A stretch of DNA of 64,000 nt, taken from the NCBI RefSeq assembly GCF_030253575.1, contig NC_080569.1, positions 18,222,001 through 18,286,000 on the forward strand, read 5' to 3'. The notes below the pieces were generated by a model. The model ran no database searches and was not told the origin of the DNA. It saw only the letters and a program-made list of their open reading frames with translations. The translations under genes and the position numbers were made by a program. This stretch comes from Rhododendron vialii. Its lineage: Eukaryota; Streptophyta; Magnoliopsida; Ericales; Ericaceae. Positions 11,271-35,584 of this stretch are shown piece after piece (position 1 is the first letter of the stretch; every line of letters begins with the position of its first letter).

Positions 11271-12086
11271 TGTGGTGGCCGGGCTCAGAGAAAGACCCAG
11301 GGGACAGCCACGTCACTCTAATAAATAGTCCGTCACTCTAATAAATAGTCAAACCCAAGGTCACAAGGGTTGACCGGCAATGCGCAGCCCGCTCATTTTA
11401 TCTCTGACGCTCATACTGCCGAGCTAAGTTCATCCAGTGCCGAGCTGAGTCCGTCCGACCAAAGAACCAGAGACCTGTGCTTTACTATGTCTGTCGCACT
11501 CGGTGACATCCTACTGCTTGCTGGACCAAAGGTATCGATAGAGCAACTCGGACAGAGCCGGGCGTTACCGATCGGGTGAACGGTCTACCACCGAGCCACC
11601 TCTGTCCCCTGACTTGGAGAGGAAGTCAAGTAGAGTTGGGCAGGAGGGGTAGGTGGCATGACAACTAGGAGCTACCAGGTGGTTGGAAGGTGGCGCCACC
11701 ACCCATCTAGGCAAACGAATGGAGGGCAGAGCTCATGACAAGCTTTTGGATAAGAGCTGGCCTGTCTGAGTATATCACACTAGCTCAAACCACCGAGCGC
11801 ATGGTATACACGCGTGTATTATGCTCCAAGCTACCTTTGCCTATAAAAGGAGTGTTCCACCTTCAGAATAAAGTAGTGCTTTTCTTCTCCCAAAACCCCT
11901 CATACTCATTAAAAGCTTTCCTTCTCATTCCAACTTGATGTCGGAATGCCCTCCCCGGACTCCGAACGATCCGGGTTTGGCACTAACGCGGGTGCCAAGT
12001 GTGCAGGACCTTTGTCTCCACGCTCAAGGGCACTATCAACCTAACCACTTTCCACGAAGACTCAACCGGAGAAAGTATAACCCACA
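11271..12086 (+). repeat. 5' LTR of the outer Tat element
   Basis: It starts TGTGGTGGCC and ends AACCCACA, and matches 35585-36400 along its whole length. It carries a private 20-bp tandem duplication of a CGTCACTCTAATAAATAGTC unit near 11321-11350 that the 3' copy lacks. Confidence 0.9.
11841..11850 (+). promoter_or_regulatory. TATA box in 5' LTR
   Basis: CTATAAAAGG, conserved in the 3' LTR near 36154-36163, is the likely core promoter of the outer element. Transcription would start some 30 bp downstream. Confidence 0.6.
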
Positions 12087-12088
12087 AT

Positions 12089-12106
12089 TGGCGACTCTGC
12101 TGGGGA
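12089..12106 (+). other. Primer-binding site of the outer element
   Basis: TGGCGACTCTGCTGGGGA lies two bases after the LTR end. It resembles the primer site of Ogre-like Tat elements, which I recall as matching tRNA-Arg. The tRNA assignment is from memory. Confidence 0.65.
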
Positions 12107-12163
12107 ACCTACTAGCTCAGATCTTTTTGTAGTTACCCCTTTCTCTTCACATCATTTCTCAAG

Positions 12164-14460
12164 ATGACAGGCGCGGACGGGCGACTTCTCGGTCTCTCAC
12201 ACTTCGGACTCAGTACCCATGTGGCCCAGGTCTCCCCGACCACTCAGCAGGTATGGGAGGATTTGGGGCTCTTTGGTACTCCAACTAGATGGTTCCATTA
12301 TGATAGGATCAACCGTGTCTGGAACAAGTAACCTCAATGCAGGAGCGGCTTTGTTCCATGTTGATGGGGTCAACCACACGGCGGGAAGCCTGGTCCCTAC
12401 TCCACCTTTCTCTCCTCCAAATCTCCCGTTGAGTATGGCAGAGTAGCTACTACGATTGAGGACATTAGTGCAAGTGCAAGTGCTCCAGGAGCTCTAGGGA
12501 GCTCCTTCCGTCTCTAAGTCTAGGGAACAGTGTCAGCGGAGGAATGCGGTTCACCCAACCCAAACGACCGACACTGCTCGGGCCTCAACCTTTTCGAGGC
12601 TCGGCCCACTGTGCCGCCTCGATGCTAATGGACGCATTCATCTGGAGTCCAAACACCAAACGGCTTCTTGCAACGAACAGTCCGACGATGGCCGCACGTG
12701 CCGAGCCCTAATGCCCGAAACAAGCACCACGATCTCGAGTGCTCAGACAAAAGGATCCAAAGACAGGGTGTCCAGCGACCGAGGTAACTCGACGGATAGA
12801 CAGAGGAAGGAACGTTTAAGAAAGTTCCCGTGATCATCATCCCTCTAGATCTCACGACCGCTGAGATGATAGTGATGAGGCCAGGTCTGGGGATCGGCGG
12901 AATGACGACCATGAAAAAGGGGTAAGAACTCATTCCCTACAGCGCTCGGCGAAACACTCCATAGGCCCGTCTTGTGCATGCAAGGAGGACAACCAGGGTT
13001 GCTCCCTGAAGAAAGGTGCGAAGTCAACAGTGGCGGTGGAGCCTTGACTATGATTAATACTCGGACCGGCAAGAGAACCACCTATTGGGTAGCGCAGCAA
13101 CACAAGCAGAGTGTCGGCGGGCGTGAACGTGGCCATTTGCCGCTCTCCGACAAACGTTCTCGGGATACCGTTCCCACAGAAGATGTCATTCCTTTAGCAG
13201 CCACCCGACCGAGTCCTCCGGTCAAGGCCGCGACCACGGCCGAGAAGACAGTGCTACCTTTCTCCTGAGCTATAGCAAAAGAAGTTCCACCTTCTAATTT
13301 CAAGGTCCCAAAGTTCAATGTCTATGATCCAAAATCGGATGCTTTGACCCATGTTCAGCAATTTAGGTCGATGGCTGAGCTTTGTGGACTTAGTGAGGCC
13401 ATGATGTGCCGGACATTCTCCTTAAGCCTTCTTGACGCTACCATGTTGTGGTACACCCAGCTCAAACCTGGGGTCTATTAACAGCTTTAATGAATTTGAG
13501 CGTTCATTCACGTCTCTGTTTGTCACGAGCAATCGGCAGCTGAAGACGATTGAAGCTTTAACGGACCTGAGGCGGAAGGTCTGTAAGTCTTTGAAAGACT
13601 ACTCTGACTGTTTTTACAATGTTTACAACTTGGTCGAAAGCTGTGACCAGAAGACTGTTGCCACGTCCTTTAAGCGCGGTCTGGACCGAACTTCTAATCT
13701 CTCCAAGGAGTTAATGCTCTAGCCGCTGGGCGACATGTCGGACCTCATGCATACCGTCGCCCATTGTATCGAACTCGAGGAGTAGATCGGAGGTCCCAGT
13801 TCAGCAGAGGTTGCTAACTCAACAAAACTGGTGATGAAGGAAGTGAATAAGCAAGTCAACAGCGTTGCCCTGGCAACGACGACGAAGGCAATAGGGGTGC
13901 CGGAAAGACATGGGACTGGCTTTCGAGAGACAGTCGGGACCACCTTGCCATCACCACTTATTTCAAAGAGTCCATCTTCCGGATACTCCGGATGGTCGGA
14001 TTCCAATGGCCAACCGTGAAATTAGGTACAACTGATGGGCGTGAACCAGATCAGAGGGTGTTTTGTACATTCTATAACGAGCAAGGCCACTACACGATGA
14101 CATGTCAACCGTACAAGCTCTACCTCGAAGAACTTGTCCAGTAGGGGAAGATGGAACAATGGATCGACCAAACTAAGTCACCGGTCGCAGGAGTCTCAGC
14201 GCGCGATCGGGCCATTGAGGGAGTTGTACGCTGTATTCATGGCCCGATGGATCAACGCCAGGCCAACGAGCTTCACAATGAACTCTATCGGCCTTCACCA
14301 TCTGTCGAGGTGATGGCGATACAGCCAACTCCGAAGCACAAGAGGGATGCTCGCAATACGTGGGAGATCAGATTCACTGAGCACGATATGGAATGGGTGA
14401 CATTTCCCCATAGCGACGCTTTGGTCCTCTCGATACCCATCCATCGAAAGATGGTCAGGA
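12164..14460 (+). pseudogene. gag of the outer Tat element, broken
   Basis: An ATG at 12164 opens a frame that meets a stop near 12330. Farther on, 13262-13480 encodes a gag-like stretch (FKVPKFNVYDPKSDALTH, then a CRTFSLSLLDATMLWY-type segment). After a frameshift, 13480-13722 continues the retrotransposon gag domain (FERSFTSLFVTSNRQLKTIE, then LKDYSDCFYNVYN). A Cys-His element may remain near 14070-14110 (CTFYNEQGHYTMTC-like in one frame). Stops and frame changes occur throughout. Gag forms the particle that packages the element's RNA; this copy cannot. Confidence 0.75.
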
Positions 14461-15066
14461 GGGTATTGGTCGATTAAGGGAGCTCGACAGAAATATTGTA
14501 CTACACGGCATTTAAGGCCCTTGGCTTTACCGAGGATCATTTGTCTCCAGTGGATGCCCTTCTGGTTGGCTTCACTAGGATTCTAGTTTATCCAGTCGGC
14601 AAGATAGTTCTCCCAGTCGTTGCCGGCTCGGTACGACTGGACGTTGAGTTTATTGTGGTTAATTCGCTGAGTCCCTACAATGCCATTCTAGGCCGCAACT
14701 GGATGCACGACATGAAGGCTGTCACGTTCACACTCCACCAATTTGTCCGGTTCATTGGCGAGTCCGGTTGGCAAGAGACCATCAAAGGAGATCAAATGGC
14801 CTCCAAGAAGTGCTTTGTCAACTTCGTCCGTGGAAAGGGCAAAGTGAAGGAAGTTCAGTGGATTGAGGTCCCAGAATTGCCGGACGGAAGTGTGCCCGGA
14901 GAAGCAATGAAGGAGGTTGGCATATCTGCAAATGACAAAGTTGTCAAGGATTTACTCCAAGTCCCAGCCAACGAAGACAGCTCACAGTTCTTTTTGGTCG
15001 GTTCTGAGCTCAGCGCTACCGAACGCGACCAGTTAGTTCAATTCCTCAAGGATAACATTGAGGTGT
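14461..15066 (+). pseudogene. Aspartic protease region of the outer element, broken at the active site
   Basis: The active-site motif should read D-x-G-S. Here VLVD is followed by a TAA stop (14475-14477) and then GSSTEILYYTAFKALGF. Downstream the fold is well preserved: VEFIVVNSLSPYNAILGRNWMH is the second conserved protease segment. The frame then runs into the linker before reverse transcriptase (LSATERDQLVQFLKDNIEV) and is cut at 15066 by the solo LTR. Confidence 0.8.
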
Positions 15067-16175
15067 TGCTTCGACTCCGAGATGGCTCAAGGACTGAGCG
15101 GGCGTGTCAGGACTTGTCGCGTCCAACGTAAAGGATTGAGTGCCCCTTTTCTGACTTCTTAACTGTGAGGGCGAAAGTGCTGCAAACCTAAGGGCTGGAT
15201 TGCAGTGTTGGTTCGTGGTTTTGCCTCTACGAGCGAGGACTTAATAATTTCCTAACCATGTAGGAAAAGAAGTAACAACGTGGAATAACTTTATTATATC
15301 GTAATAATAAAGTTGGGGATACAAGAGAGATAGGAATAACTTTTTTATGTCGTAATAACAAAATTGGGGTACAAGAGAGATAGAAATGAGGGAGAAATGA
15401 GATAGTTGCTTCGCTGGGAAGGCTTTGGTTTTAAGCGTTGAGCTTGATTGGTGTGTGGACCCTTTTTTCTTTTTGACTTCTAGTATTTATAGGCCAAGCA
15501 TCTCTACGGTTCTGCATGCAAACGGATTTGTTGGCTTCTCCTCGTGACGCCATGTGTCCTTTGTAACTTCCAATTCATGGGATCATGGGATAATGGGTAG
15601 TTATTGGAAGTTATAAAAGATCATGGGCAAATACTGCACTGGTCCAGATCTGAGCCAAGTTTTTCGCCTTCACCACGAGCTGACATGTGTCCTGAGTTGG
15701 CTCCAAATGTTGCCAAGTGTCCGAAATAACTACCCACTAACATATTTAGTGGGATCATGGGTGGTTATCGGAGGTAAATAATATTTACCCATGTGCTAAT
15801 TCTTGATCATGGGCAGTTAGGAAGATAATGGGCCTATTTTCCCTCCTTTTGTGGGCAGTAGTAATGGGCCATTTTGACTAGGTCAAATGGCCATGTGGCA
15901 AATACTCCCATCAACATGCTTCCTTTTCTTCCGTAAGGTTTCTCCAGAATAATTCAACAATGGGCCTCACCCTTGAATGCCGTGAGCCATGGCCCATTAT
16001 TTTTTCAAATTCATACTCGGTTTGGGCCGAAAAATACTTATGCCTCGGTAATTTTGTCTTAGCCCAAAAATCTCAACCCAACGTATCTCTATTCCATGGC
16101 CCAATTTAATTAAATAATAATTAAATGGCCCTCCAATGCTTGCCCAGGACTGGGTGCCAAAAACGGGTGTAAACA
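15067..16175 (-). repeat. Solo LTR (1,109 bp) of a Tat-like element
   Basis: The unit has TG...CA ends and is flanked by GGTGT on both sides (15062-15066 and 16176-16180). Removing it and one repeat joins the outer element's polyprotein frame across the gap. On the minus strand it starts TGTTTACACCCGTTTTTGGC, like the nested element's LTR (TGCTTATACCCATTTTGGC). It has a TATAAATA-like box near 15484-15494. It was probably left by recombination between the two LTRs of a full element. Confidence 0.88.
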
Positions 16176-17393
16176 GGTGTTTACTTGGACTACATACGAA
16201 AAGCCGGGCGTGAGCCCTGAGGTGATCAGGCATTCACTTAATGTAGACCCGAATAGACGGCCCGTTGTGTAGAAGCCGCGCCTCGGCGTTGCATGATGAG
16301 GCGGTGAATGATGAAGTTGAACGCCTTATCGATGCTAGTGCAATACGCGAAGTCTAATACTCGACCTGGCTGGCTAATTCGGTGGTGGTTTGGAAGAACG
16401 GCAAGTGGCGAGTGTGCATACTACACCAATCTGAATTATTCATGCCCCAGGGACTGCTTTCCTTGTCCTTGGATCAATCAGTTGGTAGATGCCACCGCCG
16501 GACATGCAAGGCTAAGCTTCATGGATGCTTACTAAGGCTACCACCAGATAGCCATGGATGAGAGGGATCAAGAGAAGACGGCCTTTATCACCTCCAAGGG
16601 AACTTATTGCTATCGGGTGATGCCCTTTGGGTTGAAGAATGTCGGGGCCACATTCTAGCGTTTGGTGGCCCAACTGTTCAAGAGGCAGATCGGCTGGATA
16701 ATGGAAGATACATAGATGATACGGTTGCCAAGAGCCAGGACGCGGCTGACCATCTGCTTCATCTCGGCGAAATATTTGAGATCTTGAAAAAGTTTAGCCT
16801 AAAACTCAATGTGGAGAAGTGCGCCTTTGGTGTTGGGTCCGGCAAATTCCTCGACCATTTAGTCACGCGCCAAGGGATTGAAGCCGATCTGTGCCAGATC
16901 AAAGCCATTCAAGACCTCCGGGCTCCATCCACGGTGAGGGAGGTTCAACGGCTCACCAGCATGGCTGCCGCTCTTAATTGATTTATCAACAAGTCTTCGG
17001 ATGTGTGCCGACTGTTCTTCCAGTCAATTAAGGGTAGTCAGAGGAGCTTTCAGTGGACGGCGGAATGCGATCATGCTCTTGCCAAACTGAAAGTTTACTT
17101 ATCCCGAGCCCCCTTACTGGTCATATCGAAGGAAGGAGAAGAGCTCTATCTATACCTCGTCGTATCTGAGCATGCCACAAGCTTAGTGTTGGTTTGGCAG
17201 GAAGGCACCGAGCAACAGCCGATCTACTATATAAGCAAGGCTCTGGTCCCTGCTAAGGCTCGTTACTTGCCTATCGAAAAGTTGGCGTTGGCATTGGTTA
17301 TGGCCAAGAGAAAACTCTTGCCGTACTTTCAGAGTTTCACCATTGTGGTCATCACCGAGTACCCTTTGAAAGCCATCCTTTGAAAGGCGGATT
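16176..17393 (+). pseudogene. Reverse transcriptase and RNase H of the outer element, broken
   Basis: Reading resumes after the solo LTR with a PGVSPEVIRHSLNVDP segment. Reverse-transcriptase landmarks follow in shifting frames: VDATAGHARLSFMDAY, then [25 protein letters not shown], and the catalytic box YIDDTVAKS near 16708-16734. The connection and first RNase H domain follow (RAPLLVISKEGEELYLYL, then IYYISKAL and YLPIEKLALALV). Several stops, for example at 16533 and 16656, inactivate it. Confidence 0.8.
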
Positions 17394-17960
17394 TGTCAAA
17401 CCGAATTTGCAAATGGTCCTTGGAATTGGCTAATTTCGACATTCGGTATCAGCCTCGTAAGGCAATCAAAGGTCAAGTACTGGCAGACTTTGTCGCCGAG
17501 CTTTCTCCGGGCCTGGTCACGGATGAAGACGTAAGTGAGCCCACGCCAAGTAATGAGCCAGTTGTGCCAGCTCCCAGACCCCGGTTGAGCCACCCAACGC
17601 ACGCTGAGTTTATCACCAAGCGTCTCATCCCAGCTCATCGAGTAAAAATCTTCACTGGACATGCCTAGCGACTACACGTCGACGGTGCATCCAACAGCTG
17701 TGGGGCTGGTGCTGGGATAGTGTTGGTTTCGCCGAGCGGGACTATGCATGAGCATGCCTTCAGCATTGGCTTTCCTACTTCTAACAATGAAGCTAAGTAC
17801 GAAGCCCTAATCATCGTCCTCGGCAAGGTTCCTTCCCCGAGCTTTAAGCCAGACTACTGGAGGTCATGGACATTCATTTAGGGCCAAGTTGGATGGAACC
17901 TTTTGTCTCCTATTTGAAGCATGCCACCCTCCCCATCGATCGCAAGGAAGCTCACAATAT
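17394..17960 (+). pseudogene. Second RNase H of the outer element, broken
   Basis: After the RT-linked RNase H, a linker (QPRKAIKGQVLADFVAEL) leads to a second RNase H-like domain, LHVDGASNSCGAGAGIVL at about 17676-17730, with FPTSNNEAKYEALI at about 17773-17815. The first acidic residue (D of VDGAS) and the glutamate of NNEAKYEA are present; the later part is scrambled. A second RNase H is a hallmark of part of the Tat lineage. A TAG stop separates it from the linker. Confidence 0.72.
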
Positions 17961-18029
17961 ACGTTTCCAATCAGCCTCTTACTTCCCCAATCCCTCCGGT
18001 GTGCTGTACTGCCGATCTTACACGGGCCT

Positions 18030-18376
18030 TGATCTCTAGGTGGTCCATGAGCAAGAGGTGCCAGACATCCTTAAAGAACTCCATGATGGGAGTACTGGAT
18101 GCCACTCCGGCGGTCGCTCTATGGTCAACTGTGCCCTTTCCCAGGGCTACTGGTGGGGGAAGATGATGCACTCTGCTACTGAGTTCGTCTAGCGGTGTGA
18201 GTCATGCCAAAAACACTCTCCACTTCTCCACTAGCCAACCCTGCCCTTACAGCCAATCTCCAGCCCTTGGCCCTTGGCCCGGTGGGGGGTTGACATCGTT
18301 GGGAAGTTGCCTAAAGCCCCCGGTGGTTTCACACACCTCATTACTGCCACTGACTACTATACATAGTGGGTGGAGG
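18030..18376 (+). pseudogene. Integrase, N-terminal part, of the outer element
   Basis: This encodes ELHDGSTGCHSGGRSM, then RCESCQKHSP, which resembles the HHCC zinc-binding region. WGVDIVGKLPKAPGGFTHLI with the first catalytic aspartate follows, ending at TDYYT-stop-WVEV. At 18376/18377 it is cut by the nested element. Stops lie in frame at about 18191, 18233 and 18365. Confidence 0.78.
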
Positions 18377-19299
18377 TGAAAACTCTCGTTTTTGGCAAAG
18401 GCGTGGATGCGTAGTGCGCGAGCGTGCCAAGACTTGTAGCGCCTAACTTTTGATGAAGATTCCCGTTAATCTTGACTTCTATCGTAAGAGCGATTGCGTG
18501 TGACCCAAAGGTTAAAGATCACAATGTGGTTCGTTGCTTGCCACACGGTCGTGGACTTAAAATTTCCTAGTCGTATAGGAAATGGACGTAGAAACGTGAA
18601 CTTTATTACTCCGAGATAATAAAGTTTGTACAAGAAAAGTAAAAGATCCAAACTACTTGAAGAAGTGAGTTTGAATGGGGTTTGAGCACGAGGTACTCGA
18701 TAAATTACTTTGCTGAAAGTAGGAAAGTATGCTTCGCTGGGAAGGCTTTGCTTGTAAGCGTTGAGCTTTGATTGGTGTTGGACTTGTTTTTCATCTTGTG
18801 AACTTGTATTTATAGGCACAACAGTAAGCTGATTCAGGCCTGAATCCGAAATCTGCCTTGCTTGCTATGCTGACATGTGTCCTATGATTGCTCCACTTTT
18901 CACGCATGTTTGATCATGGGTAGTTTTCAGAGGTTAATGGCAGTTACCAAGGTCATGGGTCCATTTGATAACTATCCCACTCCCTCATTTTGTGCTCCTG
19001 CGTGCCACATGGCTACCACGGAAACAACCAATTCCCTACAACCATGGGCCTTGTTCCCTGAACCAAATCAGCATCCTCCTTTCGGGCCTAAAATCGTGGG
19101 CCTACTTTGTGGGCCACATCAACACTCTCTTCATGGGCCGCACTTGATTATTGGGCCTAAATGCAATCTAAATTTCACGGCCGAATAAACCCAACAACAA
19201 TTAATCACATAATTTCAGCCCAAATTAATTACACGAATTAATTAATTAAAAATCCAATCACAACTAGCCCGACCCGGGGTGCCAAAATGGGTATAAGCA
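18377..19299 (-). repeat. 3' LTR of the nested element (complete, 923 bp)
   Basis: On the minus strand it starts TGCTTATACCCATTTTGGC and ends CGAGAGTTTTCA. A TATAAATA box lies at about 18808-18816 on the minus strand. It matches 30274-30981 except that its right-hand 240 bp or so have no partner there. Confidence 0.88.
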
Positions 19300-19312
19300 T
19301 TGCCCCCCCTAC
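19300..19312 (-). other. Polypurine tract of the nested element
   Basis: On the minus strand GTAGGGGGGCAA directly precedes the 3' LTR, as expected for the primer of plus-strand DNA synthesis. This fixes the element's orientation. Confidence 0.7.
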
Positions 19313-19939
19313 GCCTTGATTCTGTTAAGATTAAGGCGTTTGGAGAAGAGCAGTTTTTGGCATCCAACCAGATCTTGATGTAAACAATATTTTATCAGGC
19401 CCAAACGTGGCCTAATATTTTTCCTCTTTTTGAATTGGCTGTAATTATTATCAGATCTCCATGTGGGGCTATTATCCATAAAGGAGGTTTCCTTTCTCCT
19501 TTGGAACTCTAAAAGCTTCCAAAAAGATCCCTTTCCAACCCAATCTCTCCTTGTCATACGTGCAGCCTTCATTGTGATAGAAACAAAAATTCAAAAAGTG
19601 GGGAGGAGAAAAAGGAGGCGGTACATATCCCCAAACTTTTTAAACTTTACTCCCCAATTTCCAACATCTGTTCCAATCCCAACTTTAAAGCTAGCCTTTC
19701 TCTCTCTCCTTCTCCTTCATCACTTTCCGCCTCCCATCTCTCTCATCCAAAGCTGAGAAAACCCTAGCCACCATTGTTGAACCCACAAAGCTCCAAACAA
19801 TGTCGTCTTTTAGGGCTAAACAATCGGCCAAGAACCAAACTTCCTACTCCGACGAAATCAGATCATCAAGTCCGAAAGCCTTTCCATCAACTCTGAAATC
19901 TTAATCGATCGTACCCCACCCCGCACATCCACTGTTAAA
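19313..19939 (+). promoter_or_regulatory. Putative promoter and 5' UTR of the PMD gene
   Basis: About 630 bp lie between the nested element's 3' LTR and the PMD start codon. A long CT-rich patch (19688-19742) of the kind seen in plant core promoters lies 200-250 bp upstream; no clear TATA box was found. ATG at 19800 opens a short frame (MSSFRAKQSAKNQTS...) that stops near 19902. A one-base frame change would join it to the PMD frame, which is open upstream of 19940 back to about 19820. The original start may therefore have been 19800. Confidence 0.4.
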
Positions 19940-22893
19940 ATGGGGCTTGGGCCCACCTTCAATGGTGACTTCGCGGAGTCGCTCTACCCGTTCTATCCCC
20001 TTGCCGAAGAAGCCTTGCCGTTTGATTTCATCACCACCGATTGGACCGCATATCCTAGGGATATCCCAAATCGGCTTTGGCACAGGCCTGACAAGCAGTA
20101 TGTTCAATGGGTCAATCGTGTAGCGGCCGTGAAGGCAGGACTGTGGAAGGAAGTAGGGATCTACGAAGCCATCATGCTCAGCCGTCATCTCATTGATATG
20201 GATAAAGCCCTATTCATGGCTGCGGCCCAATTCTGGTGTGTTTCCTCTAACGCTTTTCACTTTCGTGTTGGTATGATGGGTATCACGATGCAAGATGTCT
20301 CTTTTCTTACTGGCATTCGCCCCCATGGGATTAGGGCCGATTGTTTTGTTTCACAGAAAACCCCATCTTTCACATACCCTGAATCGGCCCAACTGGCCTA
20401 TTCCAACTTCTTGAAATACTTTGCTGGTGAAGATGGGGACGAGGTCACCGAGGAAGAGCATGTAGGTCTTCTCATCTATTGGTTGAACAAATGCATCTTT
20501 TGTGTTTCTTCAAGTAGGATTACCAAAGAATTCACTGACATTGCCAAGGCCTTGGCTTCGGGCCAGAAATTGGCCCTAGCCCCACTAGTCCTTGCACATT
20601 TATACCGTGGCATGCAGAAATTGTTAACCAACAAATTTGTCTTTGCCCCCGGCCCTCTTTGGATTGTCACCCTTTGGCTATGGTCATACTTCCCCACGTT
20701 GGCCCCAAAAATGAACAAGAACCCCGCACATGCATGTTACGGCCGTCACTACGCGGGTCAAGAACTCCACTCACACGATTTCAACTCATGCTTCACCTAC
20801 TTTTACCAAGAACTAACCATTTTGGGCAAGGGCTACATGCCATTCGAACTGGAAACTGTACCTCTGTGGCTGAAAAATCCTACCGGAGAGCCCGGAGAGA
20901 ACTTTGATGAGCATAAAGAGGTCTGGGCCAGCTTCCTTATCTCGAGAGACCTGTTATATGGCATGGGAATGTCCTCAGCCAACAATAGATGTGGGACCGA
21001 ATACTACAATGCTGCCCAATTCGCTCGCCAATTTGGGCTTATGCAGCTCATTCCAATCCCCCCATATCTGTTCTGCAATGAGGATTTCATTGATAGAGTC
21101 ATCGTACCAGAAAAGACCCTAGAGACCATCCGAAACCAATTTGCCAAGGCCGAGGCCACTTTTCAGTTAAGGCCTTACCCTGAAAGTCCAGAAAAGTCTC
21201 TAAGATTCGGAAAGTGGTGGACAGCTCATGTAGACAAATACTTTGCCGAAGACCTGGATAAGGTTTTGGCAAAAATTACTCCTGTTGCCATAATTGTGAA
21301 AGATGTTGATCCTGTCAAGAAGAAAAACTCTCGTTTCGAAGGTTCCTCTCCATCTGCAAGCTTGAAAAGGAAAGGTATGCACAAAGAACTAGCCTCCTTA
21401 CCCCGTTCGCTATCTCAATTCAGGTCTTTACTGTACTCATTCATGTAATTTCTATTTCAGGTACACAAGAAATTACCAAACCTGAACCAACAGGAACCCC
21501 GCAGAAGAAAAGGCTCAAGAAGCTATCTGACAGAAGACCCGCAACTGTATGACCTGCTCAGCTCTTTCCTTTCTTATTCAACGTTGTGATTCAGACCTAA
21601 ATGCCTAAACTTGCAGGAGAAGACTGCTGCCATTGCTGGTAGGACCCGAAGCAGCACCAAGACTAGCTCCCCTGAACAGGTTAATCCATCTCTGTATTAA
21701 GGCCTAAATCTCACTTTCACTAAGGCCTGAATACTCAAATTCATATCTTTGTTAAACCTTGTATTTTCATTCAGGTCGAATCGAAGGAAACCACCCACCA
21801 TGCTGAATCAATCATAAAAGAGGAAACCAAAAAGACAAAAGCCCAGACGACTCGTCCCAAAAAATCACAAGGGGAGGGAACACAAGAAGTAAAATTGAAG
21901 AAAAGTCCTCCCACTGCCTCTGGTGATACTTCTACTGCTTCCTTGGAGGTAAACGTCATATCTTGACTTTGATTCTCCTGATTCTTTTTTGGCCTTTTCT
22001 TGACAAACTTGTTTCCTATCCTCTGACGAACCCAGGCTACCTCGGAAGGCCCTCCAATCAACCCTGAGCATGAAGCATCATCCCGAACTCCTGAGAAATC
22101 TAAGGCCTCTCCAATCAATCCTGACCCAACACCCATCCAAAAGGAAGAAATTGTTGATGAGGCAGCTGATGAAGACATGGAAGACTTCTTCAAAACAGCT
22201 GCTAGACTCGTTCAGGTATCCCTTTCAGGCGTTTCTGGAGACGGGTCTAGTTCTACCCAAGTGCCCCCAACAGCTGGAGAGATTGCCGAAGCCAAGGAGA
22301 CATTTAAGGCCTTGATCAAGATGGACATCAGGACAGCTCTGCATCCAGGAAGGGTTTCATCGTTCAAGAAGGCTCTCGGCATTCTGGCCCGGGCGCAGGC
22401 CTTCAGCGAAGCTGCCGGGACAACCCTGCAATACTTCCACAGAGACTTCCCAGACATGCAAAAATCATATGACCACGTGTCTCTAGAGCTCTCCAAGGTT
22501 GACATGAGCCTTATAGAAATCAAAGAACTTTGCCAGGATTTGGGCAAATGTGTAGGTGGCTATGAAACTTTCAAGACCCAAATTGAGACCCTTGAAGTGC
22601 AAAAAGCTGACCTTACCAAAGACATCCAGGCCTGGGAAAATCAGATCCAAGAGCTGAAGCGGAAACAAAAGGATGCAGAGAAAAATATGGTGGCCTTGGT
22701 GACCCAACAATCAAGCCTGGAGGCTCAGCAAAAAGAACTGTTTGCCACGTCCAAGGCTGTCAAGATCAAGCTCTTGCCTCTGGTTCCCAATCAACCTGAC
22801 CTCCAAACCTCAAAAGAAAGGTTAGATGCCCAACTCAACAATCTCACTGCCTCATGGGACAATCTTCGATCAAGCCTCCTTAATGAACTGTAG
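19940..22893 (+). CDS. Plant mobile domain (PMD) + coiled-coil protein, antisense gene in the nested Tat element
   Basis: Five exons join in frame: 19940-21374, 21461-21546, 21617-21679, 21775-21948, 22036-22893. All introns are GT-AG, and the product is 871 residues with no stop. Residues about 25-420 match the plant mobile domain ('aminotransferase-like' family): PFDFITTDWTAYPRDIP, FWCVSSNAFHFRVGMMGITM, DVSFLTGIRPHG, PGPLWIVTLWLWSYFP. Residues about 480-630 are a Lys/Pro/Ser/Glu-rich linker. Residues about 738-870 form a long coiled coil (heptad Leu/Lys/Gln pattern). Cellular PMD proteins such as MAIN/MAIL1 act in gene silencing and genome stability; related PMDs are known inside retrotransposons. 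What this copy does is unknown. It lies opposite to the element's pol, 180 bp from integrase, and the two genes converge. An AATAAA at about 22911 may serve polyadenylation. Confidence 0.85.
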
Positions 22894-22959
22894 GCCATCC
22901 CGGCCTTGTAATAAAGTAGAACTTTTTATGTAGCCCTGAACTCTAATCCTTAGGGCTGT

Positions 22960-23072
22960 TGGTGTTTGCATGGCCTGAACTTTAGGCCTTTTTGACTGTT
23001 AATGTTTTTGGTGGCCTAAACAGATTCAGGCCTTTATGGTGGCCTAAACAGATTTAGGCCTTTATTTATCTA
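22960..23072 (+). repeat. Short GGCCTAAACAGATT tandem repeats between PMD gene and integrase
   Basis: Two direct copies of a roughly 31-bp unit (TGGTGGCCTAAACAGATT then AGGCCTTTAT), plus a third related AGGCCT block at 22986, fill the gap between the two convergent genes. It is noncoding. Confidence 0.6.
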
Positions 23073-24301
23073 CTATGGCTTTGATGGTAGCTTTTCATTA
23101 AAATCTCTCATTTCCCACATCGTAGGATAATGATGTTTTAAAAAATTTCCATTGATAGTATGTTTATGCATTCCACCATCTAAACCCATTAAAAGATAAA
23201 CATTACCTTCGAACACCTTGCAAATTTGATAAGGCTCTTCCCACGTTGGAGACCACTTTCTATATCTTGGGGTTTGTGCGCCCAAGGGAAGAACTACCTG
23301 CCACACCAAATCTCCATCGGTGAAACTCTTCCTTCTTACTCTTCTATTATAAGCCTTAGCCACGTGACGCTTCTGAACCAGCATATGATCTAGAGCGGCC
23401 AACCTCACCTCATCAAGGTCTTCCATCTCCATTAACATAGCTTGGCTATAATCACCAGGACTTAAACCACTCTTAAACCACTCTGGTAAGTAATTTTGGC
23501 CGATCTAACTGTCACCTCCATAGGAAGTACGGGGTCATGGCCATATACCAGCATGTACGGAGTAACATTTGTAGCCTCTTTCTTTGAAGTTCTGTAAGCC
23601 CATAATGCATCAGAGAGGAGCTCATGCCAAACCCTTGGATTTTCTTCTATCATCTTCTCAATAATCCCAATCAAGGTCTTATTGGTTGATTCAGCTTGAC
23701 CATTTCCTTGTGCATAATAAGGTGTTGAATGAGAGAGCCGTATATTGAATTGGCTTGCAAAGGCCCGAACTTGTGCTCCAAAGAACACTGAGCCTCTATC
23801 CGCCACAAAATGCTCCGGTATACCAAACCCATGGATAATCTTTTCCTTCATAACTTTGATCACATCCTGTTGATCCACAGATCTCAATGGAAAGGCCTCT
23901 GCCCACTTTGTAAAATAATCCGTAGCTACCATAATGAACTTGTGTTGCTTCGATGAAGGAGGATGGATCATCCCAATTATATCCAAAGCCCAGCCTCTAA
24001 AAGGCCAAGGCTTCACCACAGCTTGGTAATCAGTTGCAGGCGTATGATGTACTGGGCCATGAGCTTGACAAGACTGGCAGCCTTTAGAAAAACGTATACA
24101 ATCCTCTAAGATAGTAGGCCAATAATAACCATACCTTCTAATTAGCCATCTCATCTTTATACCGGACTGATGTGCTCCACAAATCCCTTCGTGGACTTCT
24201 GCCATTACCTTCATGGCCTCGGTATGGCACAAGCACCTCAATAACAAATCATCCTCAAGGCCTTTCTTGTATAACTCATCCCCAAGAAGAACATAACTCA
24301 A
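23073..24301 (-). pseudogene. Integrase of the nested element, nearly intact
   Basis: The minus strand encodes a zinc-binding N-terminus (HEGICGAHQSGIKMRWL, then CQSCQAHGP). The catalytic core follows: WALDIIGMIHPPSSKQHKFI with the first Asp, FVADRGSVFFG with the second, and YYAQGNGQAESTNKTLIG with the Glu. The C-terminal domain continues in another frame at 23073-23438 (RRKSFTDGDLVWQVVLPLG, then SPTWEEPYQICKVFEGN). One stop plus frameshift at 23438-23462 separates the two. Integrase joins element cDNA to chromosomal DNA; this copy would need the break bypassed. No chromodomain was seen. Confidence 0.88.
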
Positions 24302-24509
24302 TGCTCTTCTCTTAACCTTCCTACTAGCTCCCTTATGAGGCCGTTTTAGGTAAGCAATGATGGGATCCCGCCAATCCTCCTTACCCTCCTCTTCTTTTTC
24401 AACTGGAAGGTCTGAGACAAATACTTCTAGGCCTAAACCTCTTCTCCTTACAGAAGGGGTAGCCTTTTCTGGACCGTAATGATCTTATGAAGAGTCTCTG
24501 GTGACAGCT

Positions 24510-26373
24510 TCAGGCCTGAGCCAAACTGTTCGCTTCCGTATTCGTACTCCTTGAGACATGTTTGACAATTACGTTATCAAAGTCTTGAATTAACTGCACC
24601 GCTGCCATGTAATAAGGAGCTAGCTCCTCACTATAGCATTTAAACGTCCCTGCCAAGTGGTTGATTACAAGGTTTGAATCCCCTATAACCTTTACCTCTC
24701 TGGCCTCAAGATCTCTTAAGATCTCAAGGCCTATTACCACTGCTTCATATTCAGCTTGATTGTTTGTACATGGAAAATCAAACTGAAAAGATAACTCGGT
24801 TCTCAGGCCTTGGGGAGATATAATGATAGTTCCACAGCCTGAAACCATTTGAGTTTTTGATCCATCAAAGAGAAGAGTCCAAGGAATAAGTGAAATTTCA
24901 AATGCACTCAGTCCTGTATTAGATTCTTTGCCGATATCCATGCAAGGACGATCACAAAGAAAATCTGCTAAGGCCTGGCCCTTTACGGCTTTTTGAGGGA
25001 CATATTGAAAATTGAACTCCATTAAAGCCCAAGACCATTTGCCTATTCGACCTCGCATGATTGGCCGAGAAAGCAGGTACTTAATAAGATCTATTTGACT
25101 CATAATGTAAACCACAACGGGAAGCATGTAGTGCCTCAATTTTATTGTTGCAAAGTACAAAGCAAGACACAACTTTTCAATAGGAGTATACCTCCTTTCA
25201 CAAGGAGTTAACAGCCTACTTAAATAATACACAGCTTGCTCTTTCCCTTGCTCGTTGTCTTGTGCTAAAAGGCATCCAATAGAGCCTTCTGCAGTTGAAA
25301 TGTAGAGCTTCAAAGGCTTGTTCTTGATGGGAGGCATAAGGACTAGAGCCTTTGCTAGGTAGCCTTTGATCTCGTCAAAGGCCTTTTGATGGCTTGCCTC
25401 CCAAACAAAAGTGTCTTGATCCTTCAGCCTCAGGAGTTAAGAGAAGACCTGAACCTTTCCTGCTAGGTTTGAAATGAACCTTCTCAAAAAGTTGAATGAT
25501 CCTAAGAGCTTCTGCAACTCTCTCTTGGTAGTAGGAGGCTTTGCTTCAATAATTGCCTTGGCCTTATTCTTATCAATCTCAATCAATCTATTGTGAACCA
25601 AAAACCCTAGGAACTTGCCTGCGGAGACTCCAAAGGCACACTTTAAGGGGTTCACCTTCAAGTCGAATTGTTGCATTCTCAAGAACGACCTCCTCAAATG
25701 CTCCAAGTGTTCTTCGTAGGACTGAGACTTGACTATTATGTCATCGATGTAGATCTCCATGAAACGGCCAATGAAATCATGGAAAATGGCGTTCATCGCT
25801 CGTTGAAATGAGGCTCGTGCATTCTTTAGGCCGAAGGGCATTACAACCCACTCAAAGGTTCCCAAAGCTCCGGGACACCTAAAAGCGGTCTTAGCCATAT
25901 CGGCCTCATCAATGAAGATCTGATTATATCCGGAATGACCATCCATAAAGGACAAAACCCTATGACCAGAGGCCCCATCCACCAAAAGATCTGCAACTGG
26001 CATTGGATACTCAATCCTTTGGAGAAGCCAAATTCAAATTTCTGAAGTCCACACAGACCCTGATCTTGCCATTCTTCTTAAGGATTGGTACGACATTAGA
26101 AAGCCTAGTAACATATCTAGCCGTTCGTATAAACCCAGCATTGAAAAGGCGTTCGATCTCATCTTTCACTTGCAAGTAGACATCATTGGACATCCTCCTT
26201 GGTGGCTGTTTGAAAGGCTTGAATCCCGGCTGGATAGGTAACTTGTGTTCCACCAAATCTCTAGACAAACCTGGGAGTTTGTCATAATTCCAGGCAAAAT
26301 AAGATCTGAATTCTTTCAAGAGCTGAATGAGCTTTTCTTTCACGTCTTCTGGCAAAAGTTGACTAATATACAC
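24510..26373 (-). pseudogene. Reverse transcriptase, RNase H and second RNase H of the nested element
   Basis: The reading is in three pieces. 26373-26011 has the RT N-terminus (PRRMSNDVYLQVKDEIERL, VPILKKNGKIRVCVDFRNLN). 26003-25437 has [38 protein letters not shown] and the catalytic YIDDIIVKS. 25337-24510 has RNase H (KLYISTAEGSIGCLLAQDNE) followed by a second RNase H with FDGSKTQMVSGCGTII, NNQAEYEAVVIGLEIL and GDSNLVINHLAG. These supply the D-E-D set. Two RNase H domains place it in the Tat lineage. A frameshift near 26005 and stops at about 25435 and 24508 break the polyprotein. A degenerate linker joins it to integrase. Confidence 0.88.
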
Positions 26374-26388
26374 AGGCCTTGGATTTTC

Positions 26389-28573
26389 TCAATCTCCTAG
26401 GTTAACTTCTTCCAAAGGATCTTGAACATCAGCTTTCAAATCATGTAACTTGGCAGGAGCTGCCTCCAAGTCTTCCAACCCGATCTCATCCAGGTCTTCC
26501 TCCAAATTATCATCTTCATTGATTACTTCAGCCGAATAGGCCGAATAACCTTCTTCTTCTTGCTCTTGTTCTTCCTTGAGCCTTCTTTCAAGCAAATAGG
26601 CCTCGAATTTCATCAACGTAGCCAACAAGGCCACGTCCTTCTTTTTTCCTGAAGGTCTCACTGACATTTAAACGATCGTTTGGTTGAAGCTGTAATCGGC
26701 CTATTTGACTCCGTGATCATTGGGCCGATTAACTCTTGGTATAATGCCTTCACCTCTTCTACCGACTTGTGAGCAGAAACAGGTACAATCTTGTGACGGC
26801 CATACTTATTCAGGCCTGCCACTTTCATTGGGCCGACATCCTCATCGTATAATCTTGCCTCGGCATGATTGGTTGAGACATGAAAAGGTCTACGATCTGC
26901 CCAGATTACCTCTACATCTTCTTGATTCCAAAAATCAAACATTGGTGCAAGGTTGATGGCACAGCCAAGCAGGCGTGAATCCAATCCCTTCCCAACAAAA
27001 TGTTGAACGAAGACCGTGAATTTACTACAAAGAAAGGAGTTGTGAGCGTCTTTGACCCAACCGTTAAGTTCATAATCAAAATCCCCTAACAGACCGTTTC
27101 CTGTCCAGTGAAATCAGTCAAAGTAGCCGTTGATGAAACCAAGTCTTGATCTGTTTTGCCTAGCCTGAGCATGGTAGATCTAGGCATGAGATTAGCTGCC
27201 GAACCATTATCAACAAGGAGTCGATTGATTGGCATTCCATCCACACACCCTGAGATATATAGAGGCTTGATGTGCTTCGTCATCTTAGGAGTTGGCTTTT
27301 CAAATATCACGCTTGCTACTCGGTCTTCTGTGGAATTCTCATCCTCGTCCTTCAATATTACCACTGAAGGCCCTCCTCCATTCAGACCTGAATTGAGGGA
27401 CTCCTTCAGTATTTCAGCGATTTCACCCATTTCCACCACATCACCCTCCATAGCAGTAAGCTTGTTGTCTTTCACCTCTAATTCAGATGGAAGAAAAACA
27501 ACCATGTTGCACGGCATCTTTGAAGCCTGTTCAGGTCTGAATTCTTTGGCCTGTGGATTAGCGTGGCTTACCCCCCGAGTCCTGTTCTTTGGCTCGAGAG
27601 CTTCCTTCTTCAATAAAGTAACCTGCCTTGGGGGAGGCTTAATCCTAGCCTCCTCAAGGGTTTTTTCCAGTAAAGCCTTCTTCTCAAACCGAGGAACCTG
27701 CTCTAAAGACGAACCGGCAACAACCTCTTTGTACGTTCATTCCAAGGGCTTGCGTTCTTTTCTAGGCTTGACTGTTTCAACCTTCATCTCTTCCATAGAT
27801 AACTCCATCACCTTTTCCTTACCAGGGTCATCTTCTTCCATCATGTCCCCAAACAGATCTTCTTCTCCTTGAGCCCTTCTTTCCGCCTGCCTAAATCGTT
27901 GGCGGCGTCTTTTTTGAGACCGGGACAATGGTGGTTGTGGAGTAGGAAACTTAGGATGTTCAACCTTCTGCCACTCATTTGGAGGAGTGACAGGAGGTTT
28001 AACGGTCCTAGGCTTCCTTTTGGATGGGGCTGAAATTCTGAGATTGTTGAGCTCATCTCCAATCTCCACCACACCTGGCTGGATTCTGTTGAAGACTGAT
28101 TCCCGTCTGACCTGGATCTGTCTCTGTTTAGGCCTGCGTATCTCTTCCGGCTTGACTTCAGCCCCGCCCACAATTATACTCTTCAACACAGGTCTGGATG
28201 GAACTGCATGATGCCCACATTCGGTGCACACCAATGAGCAACTCGGTTTCTCTGGTTTTCTGACTCCTTCAGGCCTTAACCACCAGAACTTTTTCTTTTC
28301 GAACTTCCTCACCCTTTCAGGAGTGAAATCTTGCTCATAATACGGATCCCAGTAGTTGTCTGATCTAGGCCTGAATGCCGCTATAAATGGTGCCCCCAGG
28401 CTTACTTTGGGCCTAGGCGCAGTCCTGGGCATGAACCTCATATTCACCGACACCATGTTTGCGCTTAGGCCTGAAGGAAATGGGTTACCATCGACTCCCA
28501 TGGCTTGTTTGTCCTTTTCGGGAAACTTGAATTCTCCCCGGTCAATCTTGTCTTGAATGTCATTTCTAAACAC
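26389..28573 (-). pseudogene. gag C-terminus, linker and protease of the nested element
   Basis: A basic, Arg-rich gag tail (28573-27737; RSQKRRRQRFRQAERRAQGE) is followed by a TGA stop. The protease with an intact active-site motif follows (RLLVDNGSAANLMPRS, about 27150-27230). A TAG at 27085 and a frameshift near 26950 interrupt the rest, which continues as FNILLGRDWIH and then an acidic linker (26389-26667) ending in TGA. The protease matures the polyprotein. Each domain looks little changed; the damage is a handful of point lesions. Confidence 0.8.
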
Positions 28574-28597
28574 AAAGCAATTATTCGTTGAATGACT

Positions 28598-30231
28598 CTA
28601 AGAATTATGATACTTACAGTATTCTTTGCCCTTTAACTCATCCAATGCTGGAATTTTGTGGCCAAAGGGCAGTTTCAACAATTTGTCCGCCAAAAGCTGA
28701 TCAAAAATGGCCTCCGCCTTGCTGATGTCAAAGGTATAGGCCCGGGTTGGCCTATTAGATGTTTCTTGGATCGGTTGTTTCGTAAGTTCCATCTTGACGA
28801 AGGCCTTGCAGACGTAAGGCTTTCTATTGACGATCTCAGCTACATCAACATCCACACTAGCCTCTGTTTCAACCGTGGCAACATCATAATTAGGGTCCTG
28901 ATAATACATCCCCTTGGAAGCTGCCTTTCTGTCCTTCTCCTCCTCCAGAAACTTTTCATAACGTGAGGCCATTGCAGACAGTTCGAACAGGTCTCGAAAT
29001 TTTGTACCATGATACTTCTTGAACTCAAAGTCCATTCCGTTCAGCGCTAAACGCACATATTCGGCCTCGGGCAAAGGAATCTTACACTTGAAACGTGCTG
29101 TCTTGAATCGTAAAAGGTAAGATTCCACGCCTTCTCTTGGAAGTTGACGATAGCGTGATAAATCCGCCATCGTGATCTCTGGTTCAACTCTATAAAACTG
29201 CTGGTGAAACATCTCCTCGAGCGGAGCCCAGGTCTAGATAGAATTGGGTGGCAGATTGATATACCAGGTAAAGGCCGTTGCCGTCAAGGAATTTGGAAAA
29301 AGCCTTAACTTGAGTTTGTCATTCGTTCCAGCTTTTCCACATTGCACTTGAAATCGAGCAATGTGTTCCACTGTGGACTGCATATTCTCGCCTGTGAAGG
29401 TCTGAAATTTAGGGACACGGTACCCCTTGGGAAAAGGCTCGCCGTCAACCTCCTTCGTATGGGGCTTCCTGTACATAGGTCTGCCCACAGGTTTGAATCC
29501 AGGCCCTAGCTGCTCTTGTAGTAAATCCAAGACTTGATCCCTTCCAATCATGTTTGGCATTGGAGGCGGCCGTGGGCCTGCCTCCTGGGCCTGTAAATTC
29601 ACGCCTGGATTTGCCCCCCGAGTCTCTGGGGCTGAATGAGCATGAGACACGTTCTTGTCTTTAGCAGTACACTGTCCTCCGTGAGGAGACCTTTTGTCTG
29701 CCTTTTTAGGCCTGTTTTGATGCTCCACCAAAACGGCCCTCTGTTCCTTGTTCATTGGAGGAGTCGGTTTTCTTCCAATAACCACTCCTTTTAGCCATTT
29801 CTCCTGCCGATGCAGGACTGTTTGACGAAGAAGCCTGATAGAACACTTGTGGTGGTATTGGGTCCTTCAGACCTGTCTGTTCATGGCCGTTGCCATAAAC
29901 TCTGAACTGTGGTAGAACTTGTTGTTGAGGGATGAGTGGCAGCCTCTCTGTCATTGTGGCAATCATGTTATTGATTGCTAGAGTCAAAGGCTCTACGGAC
30001 TGAGACATCGTTTGTGACACGGTGTGAGAAATCTCCTGTCCTGCAAAAAAACATATAATTCTTGACACTATCCGTAGCATCATGGAGATCTTGTGCACTG
30101 AGTTGAGGAGCGGCCTCCTCGAGCAGTGGAACGTCAACAGCAACTCCTTCAGGACTGCCTGGAGGATTGGGCAGTGTTGGATTCGACGGTGGTGGATCTA
30201 GTTGCGGCTGCTGATTCTTATTTGGCGGCAT
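28598..30231 (-). pseudogene. gag of the nested element
   Basis: ATG at 30231, just after the primer-binding site, opens with a Pro/Gln-rich segment. Frameshifts follow near 30045 (an A run) and 29790. The capsid-type gag domain lies at 29234-28950: LTATAFTWYINLPPNS, then a TAG stop, then LEEMFHQQFYRVEPEI and YLLRFKTARFKCKIPL. A Cys/His cluster, YCKYHNS, is followed by a TAG stop and then SHSTNNC at 28570-28625. Both TAGs sit where a tryptophan codon would fit (TGG to TAG). The protein would form the virus-like particle. Confidence 0.85.
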
Positions 30232-30253
30232 GATTGAACCTTTGAACGACTAG

Positions 30254-30273
30254 GGTCCCACCGGGCGTGCCAA
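30254..30273 (-). other. Primer-binding site of the nested element
   Basis: On the minus strand, TTGGCACGCCCGGTGGGACC follows directly after the 5' LTR end (CGAGAGTTTTCA). Position and TGG start fit a primer-binding site; I do not assign the tRNA. Confidence 0.6.
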
Positions 30274-30981
30274 TGAAAACTCTCGTTTTTGGCAAAGGCG
30301 TGGATGCGTAGTGCGCGGGCGTGCCAAGACTTGTAGTGCCTATCTTTTGACTTCTATCGTAAGAGCGATTGCGTGTGACCCAAAGGTTAAAGATCACAAT
30401 GTGGTTCGTTGCTTGCCACACGGTCGTGGACTTAAAATTTCTTAGTCATATAGGAAATGGACGTAGAAATGTGAACTTTATTACTCCGAGATAATGAAGT
30501 TTGTACAAGAAAAGTAAAAGATCCAAACTACTTGAAGAAGTGAGTTTGAATGGGGTTTGAGCACGAGGTACTCGATAAACTACTTTGCTGAAAGTAGGAA
30601 AGTATGCTTCGCTGGGAAGGCTTTGGTTGTAAGCGTTGAGCTTTGATTGGTGTTGGACCCGTTTTTCATCTTGTGAACTTGTATTTATAGGCACAGCAGT
30701 AGGCTGATTCAGGCCTGAATTCGAAATCTGCCTTGCTTGCTATGCTGACATGTGTCCCATGATTGCTCCACTTTTCATGCATGTTTGATCATGGGCAGTT
30801 TTCAGAGGTTAATGGCAGTTACCAAGGTCATGGGTCCATTTGATAACTATCCCACTCCCTCATTTTGTGCTCCTGCGTGCCACATGGCCAATTTACCAAG
30901 TCAATTGGCCTTTGAATGTGGAGGAAAAATAGCTACCACGGAAGCAACCAATTCCCTACAACCATGGGCCTTGTTCCCTTG
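30274..30981 (-). repeat. 5' LTR of the nested element, truncated
   Basis: It matches 18377-19060 closely but stops at about 30981, where integrase sequence of the outer element begins. About 240 bp of the LTR's outer end are absent. This copy keeps a roughly 43-bp segment near 30889-30931 that the other LTR lacks. Confidence 0.88.
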
Positions 30982-31673
30982 ACCAAATCATAACTCGGTT
31001 CGAAGTTCCGTATGCTATTGTGTCTGACAACGGCACCCAGTTTGTAGCCGACGCCATCAAGGCACTTTACGAGAAGCACAACATTCAGATGAAAACGGCC
31101 TCCATGTCCTACCTTCGAGGGAATGGACAGGCTGAAGCCTCCAACAAGGCCATTTCCGCCGGCCTGAAGCGACGTCTTACTAATAAACGAGGCAAGTGGA
31201 CGGCTGAGTTACTTGACGTTCTGTGGGGCAACCACACCACACCTCGGCGTGGCACCGGCCGAACTTTTTTCTCTATGGCATTCGGTGTTGAGGCTGTACT
31301 TCCATTGGTGATTACTCAACCAATTGTTCGTACTACCACTTTTGACATCGCGGCAAACGATGCCATGTTGGCCGCCGAGGTGGATTGCATTGACGACCTC
31401 CGGGACGATGCCCACATTAAGTATGCTGCCTATCAACAACAGCTCGCCCATGGCTATAACAAGAACATGAGGGCCCAGCCTTTTAACGTGGACGATCTTG
31501 TCCTTCGGCAGGTGATCCAGAAGAAAGACTTGAAGAAATTTATGCCCAAGTGGGAAGGCCCTTTTCGGGTTGTCAAGAAAGTGGGTTATGGGTCTTATGA
31601 GCTGTCCGAAATGGACGGCACGGCTATCCCTAACCATTGCAACGCTCAGCAGCTTAGGAAATTTTATGGTTAA
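30982..31673 (+). pseudogene. Integrase, C-terminal part, of the outer element
   Basis: Reading resumes as DQIITRFEVPYAIVSDNGTQF, containing the second catalytic aspartate. The glutamate region follows (GNGQAEASNKAISAGLKRRL), then the C-terminal domain (WEGPFRVVKKVGYGSYEL), with stop at 31671-31673. This stretch is a clean frame of more than 210 codons. Compared with the N-terminal part (ending at WVEV before 18377), roughly 20 codons are missing, so the nested insertion was accompanied or followed by a deletion. Confidence 0.85.
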
Positions 31674-35567: not shown

Positions 35568-35584
35568 AGAAGTTGAGGGGCTAT
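35567..35584 (+). other. Polypurine tract of the outer element
   Basis: GGAAGAAGTTGAGGGGCTAT immediately precedes the 3' LTR and fits a polypurine tract. Confidence 0.65.

Follow-up and report, generated by a model that had tools for sequence, protein, structure and literature searches.

What is an intron-bearing gene for a plant mobile domain (PMD) protein doing on the antisense strand of a retrotransposon? This question is raised by a 64,000-nucleotide stretch of Rhododendron vialii DNA (contig NC_080569.1, forward strand; C13:18222001-18286000; hereafter the window), which holds a Tat/Ogre-like long terminal repeat (LTR) retrotransposon with such a gene opposite to pol. We call this retrotransposon the inner element, because it is nested in an older one. 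PMD proteins tie plant transposons to host silencing, and whether transposon-borne PMDs act against silencing has been raised as a question in print. The locus is a tractable case: its gene model has introns and shows measured purifying selection, a single genome supplies many sister copies, and a candidate DNA word has come to light. We find that the PMD gene is real, and we lean modestly toward the view that it would encode a trans-acting regulator of its own element family.

A five-exon PMD gene antisense to pol

The PMD gene lies between pol and the 3' LTR, tail to tail with the integrase gene, the two stop codons being 179 bp apart (Table 1). Its five plus-strand exons join to 2616 nucleotides, or 871 codons plus a stop, and the four introns (70-95 bp, 59-67% A+T) all run from GT to AG, as the first-pass annotation of the window had proposed. 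A profile search, suggested there as a check, bears out the domain assignment and disposes of one of the refuting outcomes named there: the exon-1 frame aligns to positions 1-346 of the 347-position Pfam PMD profile PF10536 (E 1.1e-41; 143.6 bits, cut-off 34.9). The coiled coil claimed for the C-terminus is likewise supported: AlphaFold2, run on exon 5 with eight sequences, predicts a single helix at residues 125-249 (125 residues), with a mean pLDDT >90 across 151-230 that drops toward either end, and the hydrophobic contrast at heptad positions a and d was matched by none of 200 shuffles. The linker is basic, with 30 K+R versus 19 D+E over 145 residues. A sequence search of solved structures gave 12 entries (E 0.07-0.85), all in the C-terminal coiled-coil part and none at the PMD, and a search of viral contigs found no relative. 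Since the PMD exon comprises 478 of the 871 codons and the coiled coil lies beyond four introns, surveys of single open reading frames (ORFs) can miss part of such genes.

The placement inside a Tat element, also claimed at first pass, agrees with the minus-strand gag, reverse transcriptase (RT), two RNase H domains and integrase. The RT_RNaseH and RVT_3 matches fall within 24510-25436, after RT and before integrase, and two RNase H domains define the Tat lineage of Ty3/gypsy, a second one between RNase H and integrase being the mark of Ogre and Retand (PMC6317226). A gap of 269 bp (26389-26657) precedes the RT frame, compared with about 274 bp for Ogre. This gap would fit Ogre, although the frames of the inner element are also broken in several other places and the RNase H order is equally that of Retand.

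The description of the gene as intact proved wrong at the N-terminus, and gag-pol is broken as well, the polyprotein being split into at least ten open stretches, which leaves the window copy non-autonomous in its present state. An upstream ATG at 19800 lies 47-48 residues ahead, and the frame from it into the PMD is open in nine of the 12 sister copies (see below) that cover it, but not in the other three or in the window copy. Relatives found by protein search also begin upstream, and the start of the R. molle protein P0014 matches this ATG. Because this shared start is out of frame in the window copy, the 871-residue reading begins at an internal methionine. Inside the five exons, the window copy has neither stops nor frameshifts; all 13 sisters carry 2-8 stops each.

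Intron retention and selection among sister copies

A DNA search of the R. vialii genome's own 532.6-Mb assembly (13 contigs) returned at least 40 matches. Thirteen loci (L010-L022) in which exon 1 is matched wholly or partly at 77-94% identity are treated as sisters, and eight of these (L010-L016 and L020) span the whole gene. The gene thus recurs in other copies, for which a search had been suggested at first pass. The introns covered are kept in all 13 sisters, none having been precisely removed, and GT-AG is retained in 44 of 51 sister introns (12/13, 11/13, 11/13 and 10/12 for introns 1 to 4; L019 stops short of intron 4). This retention is as expected if the introns are not spliced out of the genomic RNA, in line with the earlier claim that they survive retrotransposition; because they lie on the strand opposite to that RNA, they would persist from copy to copy.

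The setting is shared as well. Integrase lies antisense downstream in all nine sisters with an unbroken gene 3' end. In the remaining four, the 3' part of the gene was matched separately, roughly 1.4 to 24 kb off, as L025, L023, L029 and L028; three of these have integrase, and L029 has the C-terminal part of integrase. An LTR was matched upstream of the gene in 10 of the 13 sisters. Eight 5-kb pieces were taken on the far side of the full sisters: gag-pol of the inner-element family is present in five, another Tat-like element (L041) in one, and two gave no match; the 5' LTR was matched in three of the eight pieces, in L046 only partially.

The ratio of nonsynonymous to synonymous divergence (dN/dS) was estimated by the Nei-Gojobori method for each sister against the window copy. 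Over the whole coding sequence the values are 0.13-0.25 (13 sisters; up to 869 compared codons). Exon 1 alone gives 0.10-0.20 in the same 13, and exon 5 gives 0.10-0.33 in 11 of them, L017 and L021 having few codons there. The integrase is at the same level (0.12-0.29, 12 sister loci), whereas exon 1 read in its two wrong frames yields 1.11-1.88 (L015, L016 and L020). L020 combines a dS of 0.86 with a dN/dS of 0.15, and third codon positions are the most variable for transversions too in all six copies counted. Because the gene resembles integrase in this respect while the wrong frames do not, these comparisons indicate that purifying selection acted on the protein, in both domains, and not just on antisense RNA, a conclusion robust to the exact values. 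Random decay among the sisters, which the first-pass annotation had named, together with a lack of splice-junction reads, as a sign against the gene, stands in part: each sister is decaying, but the differences between copies bear the mark of past purifying selection rather than of random decay alone. The pattern is that of individual copies that decay, whereas the family gene was maintained.

Relationship to other PMD proteins

A protein search gave 14 proteins, the nearest annotated ones from Rhododendron. The order PMD, linker, coiled-coil region is shared by five Solanaceae proteins of 884-909 residues (Solanum, Nicotiana, Lycium), a 938-residue Cornus protein and one further protein of 821 residues, although exon-5 identity is only 20-25%. 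Protein P0012 departs from the common sequence just past the residues preceding intron 1 and ends 35 residues later, as an unspliced reading would; P0006 does likewise but less clearly, and P0011, which reaches the coiled coil, resembles the spliced reading.

In the same genome, distant families (L030-L038; 48-71% PMD identity) have a coiled-coil match in the locus, after the PMD, in seven of nine cases, as does L054. The exon-1 end KRKG followed by an unrelated reading recurs in four of the six distant-family loci examined (L031, L032, L033 and L036).

Eight loci (L001-L008) are called host-like on the ground that they have no match to the inner-element pol within 1.5 kb. They also have no coiled-coil match, and are 25-37% identical to the window PMD. 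Two further loci, L047-L048, which give partial rows, are taken by us to be host-like by resemblance. In a tree of 25 rows, the window PMD shares a 16-row clade (support 100/99) with relatives that are transposon-borne or unplaced; outside this clade stand nine host-like rows, namely seven from L001-L008 (L004 omitted) plus the two partial ones. The tree has a midpoint root, flagged long branches and two partial host rows. A place with transposon-borne rather than host-like rows is what PMD-A would show, in a tree that includes no published PMD-A reference sequences, nor MAIN and MAIL1, and whose host-like labels are provisional.

Separately, PMD genes were seen clustered at C6:40.92-41.15 Mb (L001, L003, L004, L006 and further matches). 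Their frames are long and their PF10536 scores high, and the four loci examined there have no inner-element pol match within 1.5 kb.

A hexamer enriched in the element family

AGGCCT is the most over-represented hexamer of the inner element (31 seen, 4.0 expected), occurring about once per 400 bp, coding sequence included; in the rest of the window it is seen 8 times with 12.6 expected. It ranks first in the sister 5' pieces with matching gag-pol (five of eight; 61 versus 6.8 expected) and in the eight full sister gene loci (107 versus 17.4), and fourth in L031-L038 (38 versus 10.3). It ranks 287th in the host-like L001-L008, where 11 sites with about 6 expected amount to a mild excess at most, and 728th in the older, outer element, with no enrichment. 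It is not over-represented in L041, the other Tat-like element examined. Within the family, 90 of 123 sites are retained in the gene region and 43 of 56 in integrase, compared with fractions of 0.56 and 0.65 for control words, a difference that may partly reflect common descent. The longer word TTCAGGCCTGAA occurs 166 times in the genome versus 9 for its reversed control, which contains CG and so is biased low. A maximal-order Markov test (31 seen, 26.6 expected) is uninformative for a palindrome.

Three accounts of the word were rejected. It is not a feature of all PMD loci, since L049-L053, five PMD loci without a coiled-coil match, hold 0-2 sites (0.6-1.4 expected). It is not a by-product of coding, since sites in gag/pol frames occupy all three phases (5, 6, 5) and ten coding stretches hold 22 of them, compared with a mean of 5.4 and a maximum of 12 in 1000 synonymous shuffles. 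A link to the 'DOWN' motif of MAIN/MAIL1 was dismissed as well, the MORC1-promoter motif being CATGCAGTTT (PMC9899485).

AGGCCT could be a candidate binding site of the PMD protein. Under a tentative and rather doubtful extension of this idea, the PMD plus coiled-coil protein would be a sequence-specific factor on AGGCCT palindromes, often in TTCAGGCCTGAA- or TTTAGGCCTAAA-like contexts, that marks family copies for transcription or counter-silencing. The enrichments are correlations from few families with hand-picked loci, and some results speak against such a role. In L054, which has both PMD and coiled coil, the word is enriched (11 versus 1.9 expected) but ranks third, not first. Two PMD fragments belonging to related elements, L030 (PMD 67-71% identical; 1 versus 0.9) and L026 (2 versus 1.1), show no enrichment. 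Between families, in an uncertain alignment, just two of 11 L054 sites and 0-1 per locus in L031-L038 coincide with window sites.

Were the idea true, the element would evolve in step with its protein, as VANDAL does with VANC, except that the motifs would be spread through coding sequence instead of lying in non-coding arrays; a Tat lineage with a different antisense protein would then use a different word. In the outer element the over-represented word is GCCGAG (25 of the 32 window sites), and L041 has AGTACG, with 16 same-strand sites, 14 of them at 3448-4063 and some inside a short tandem repeat. VANC21 is, to our knowledge, not a PMD protein, and it is a candidate parallel in mode of action only, the likeness being an element-coded protein with a short family-enriched motif (VANC21 of VANDAL21, PMC5735166). 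VANC21 motifs form mainly non-coding arrays in one orientation (PMC5735166), whereas AGGCCT is palindromic and scattered; with 22 sites inside ten coding stretches, arrays of the VANC type in non-coding regions were not found.

Two observations adjoin this subject. The AGTACG cluster of L041 lies between pol and an antisense frame (4241-4834) that looks coiled-coil-like by eye. The stretch between the convergent genes of the window (22894-23060), which contains AGGCCT sites, is 88.6-97.1% identical to the window across the eight full sisters, with a 28-base indel in three; in L020, the most distant copy, it is better kept than the exons (88.6% versus 74.7-84.1%).

Possible functions of the PMD gene

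On balance, we somewhat favor the explanation that this is an accessory gene of an Ogre/Tat family encoding a nuclear, trans-acting regulator that would keep family copies transcribable. From the features above we infer, rather than observe, transcription and splicing of the gene, a nuclear place and oligomerization of the product, a chromatin role and counter-silencing. The gene has a putative leader and a poly(A)-like signal of its own, and would yield a nuclear protein from the strand opposite to gag-pol; the coiled coil would oligomerize it, and the basic linker and PMD would bring it to chromatin. There it would act in trans on family copies, by transcriptional regulation or counter-silencing. 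Tea belongs to the same plant order as Rhododendron. Tea PMD genes hold 175 phasiRNA (PHAS) loci, which implies that some of the genes are transcribed, even though expression is very limited for most, in a set that is not split into transposon and other PMDs (PMC10673657). A PMD is found in 57% of Ogre elements (PMC6317226), and PMC8616336 puts forward a counter-silencing role for transposon PMDs as a group.

Several points weigh against this explanation. AlphaFold2 gave no usable fold for the PMD exon (13 sequences, pLDDT 38.7). The Cornus, Solanaceae and 821-residue relatives were compared as proteins alone, so a Tat setting is not implied for them. All dN/dS pairs share the window copy and are thus non-independent. 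In addition, introns diverge less than synonymous sites (0.065-0.42 versus 0.15-0.86 in ten copies; 0.41 versus 0.86 in L020), and dS is therefore not a clean neutral yardstick; faster C-to-T decay of synonymous C in methylated DNA may inflate it. Finally, host MAIN and MAIL1 favor silencing, in part at least because they keep MORC1 expressed (PMC9899485), which leaves the direction of any transposon-PMD effect ambiguous. The partners of MAIN and MAIL1 could conceivably be targets of a transposon PMD too.

Among other explanations, the one that we take most seriously, while still thinking it unlikely, is that the protein helps replication, assisting gag/pol steps such as nuclear entry of the pre-integration complex or integration-site choice, rather than countering silencing. 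Its conservation at the integrase level would suit such a helper, but gene and gag-pol are convergent on opposite strands, nothing in the sequence singles this role out, and we know of no contact between a PMD protein and gag or integrase. A role in retrotransposition and nuclear import have been discussed for antisense genes (PMC7264820), and the same paper proposes an RNA role for them. In that case the antisense unit would work mainly as RNA, pairing with genomic RNA to give double-stranded RNA and small RNAs that dampen the element, with the protein incidental. The tea PHAS loci are in keeping with this, yet the low dN/dS across two domains, set against the wrong-frame values for exon 1, points to selection on codons, so that RNA alone is insufficient and an RNA-centered account seems improbable to us; the two roles could coexist.

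Capture of a host MAIN/MAIL-type gene by the element has the shared PMD domain in its favor, and MULE elements have captured host PMD-C genes (PMC5418596). Because the window PMD stands in the tree apart from the host-like PMD genes of its own genome, however, it does not look like a recent capture, and we consider this origin very improbable. The 'imitation' of MAIN/MAIL1 suggested at first pass would likewise draw on a distant relationship, that of the window PMD to L001-L008. Least credible of all is a prediction artefact or functionless relic. Stops in every sister, an out-of-frame N-terminus in the window and a broken gag-pol would be expected of a dead gene, but purifying selection is apparent both between copies and between subfamilies (L020), and the same domains recur in distant families, where four of the six loci examined also share the exon-1 end.

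Comparison with known systems

PMD-bearing Gypsy elements are known, as the first-pass annotation noted. The closest parallels are the PMD-A genes that Ikeda et al. 2017 (PMC5418596) described in plant Gypsy elements and the extra PMD ORFs of Ogre (Neumann et al. 2019, PMC6317226), likewise PMDs of Tat/Ogre-like Gypsy elements apart from host-like genes. Host MAIN and MAIL1 (PMD-C) have the PMD domain in common with the window protein; the host-like loci of this genome differ from it in identity and form separate tree groups. What is added here to the published PMD-A and Ogre PMD ORFs is the five exons, the predicted coiled-coil C-terminus and the measured purifying selection. For Neumann et al., each predicted extra ORF was one open frame of 250 codons or more (PMC6317226), and Ikeda et al. 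confirmed transposon association by Fgenesh gene prediction, so that multi-exon models may exist there (PMC5418596).

Antisense ORFs of the aORF-3R type (maize Grande gene23, Retand TRP28 and bean PvRetro13 ORF2) occupy the same place and orientation and are conserved across copies. Their products differ, with no PMD described for them in the accessible text of PMC7264820, PMC11963269 and PMC4093653. Some bean ORF2 proteins match SMC (PMC4093653), which we take as coiled-coil-like. Grande gene23 has its own promoter and a nuclear product, whereas the PMD gene has pattern matches only (TATA, telo-box, AATAAA).

PMD genes in Ogre elements, antisense extra genes (PMC11963269, PMC4093653) and a counter-silencing role are thus already in print. 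Our literature search, outside which Steinbauerova et al. 2011 and Gomez-Orte et al. 2013 fell, turned up no account of an antisense PMD gene with introns and no paper combining Rhododendron and plant mobile domain; at the level of titles and listings, none pointed to AGGCCT in such elements.

Features of the inner element and its surroundings

Table 1. Coordinates in the window of the PMD gene and of the element that carries it.
Feature	Position	Strand	Basis or remark
Tat/Ogre-like LTR retrotransposon hosting the PMD gene	18377..30990	-	12.6 kb; LTR pair by blastn, Pfam matches (RT, two RNase H, integrase, gag)
3' LTR	18377..19070	-	blastn pairing with 30274-30990; ends read from sequence
Purine-rich tract adjoining 3' LTR	19071..19083	-	sequence
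Putative promoter and leader of antisense gene	19292..19799	+	TATAA at 19292, telo-box AAACCCTA at 19759; pattern matches only
N-terminal extension	19800..19939	+	ATG at 19800; open in 9/12 covered sister copies; out of frame with PMD in window copy
Exon 1, PMD domain	19940..21374	+	PF10536 match; 478 of 871 codons
Intron 1, GT-AG	21375..21460	+	sequence, sister copies; position matched in 4/6 distant-family loci
Exon 2	21461..21546	+	sequence, sister copies
Intron 2, GT-AG	21547..21616	+	sequence, sister copies
Exon 3	21617..21679	+	sequence, sister copies
Intron 3, GT-AG	21680..21774	+	sequence, sister copies
Exon 4, basic linker	21775..21948	+	sequence, sister copies, charge count
Intron 4, GT-AG	21949..22035	+	sequence, sister copies
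Exon 5, predicted coiled coil, stop	22036..22893	+	helix prediction, heptad test
AATAAA, poly(A)-signal-like	22910..22915	+	pattern match only
Integrase, convergent with PMD gene	23073..24484	-	rve and H2C2 Pfam matches
RT, RNase H, second RNase H (RVT_3)	24510..26388	-	open frames, Pfam
gag-protease region, broken frames	27086..29866	-	gag Pfam match 28598-29233; protease placed by position only
Primer-binding-site-like stretch, TGG start, adjoining 5' LTR	30255..30272	-	sequence
5' LTR	30274..30990	-	blastn pairing with 18377-19070

The LTRs of the inner element are identical in 652 of 672 ungapped blastn columns; the alignment also has one indel of 22 bp and one of 45 bp. No Pfam match to a protease was found in the gag-protease region. 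The inner element interrupts the integrase of the outer element, an older plus-strand Gypsy element whose LTRs (11331-12086 and 35625-36400) are 88% identical by blastn. On reading the sequence, no target-site duplication was seen flanking the inner element (18372-18376 versus 30991-30995), and a short part of the outer integrase is apparently missing at the insertion point; together these hint at deletion or recombination during insertion. The outer element (11331-18376 and 30991-36400) also has antisense frames between pol and its 3' LTR, and a sub-threshold Transposase_28 match was seen at 33887-34486 (E 0.0049; 17.5 bits against a cut-off of 26.2).

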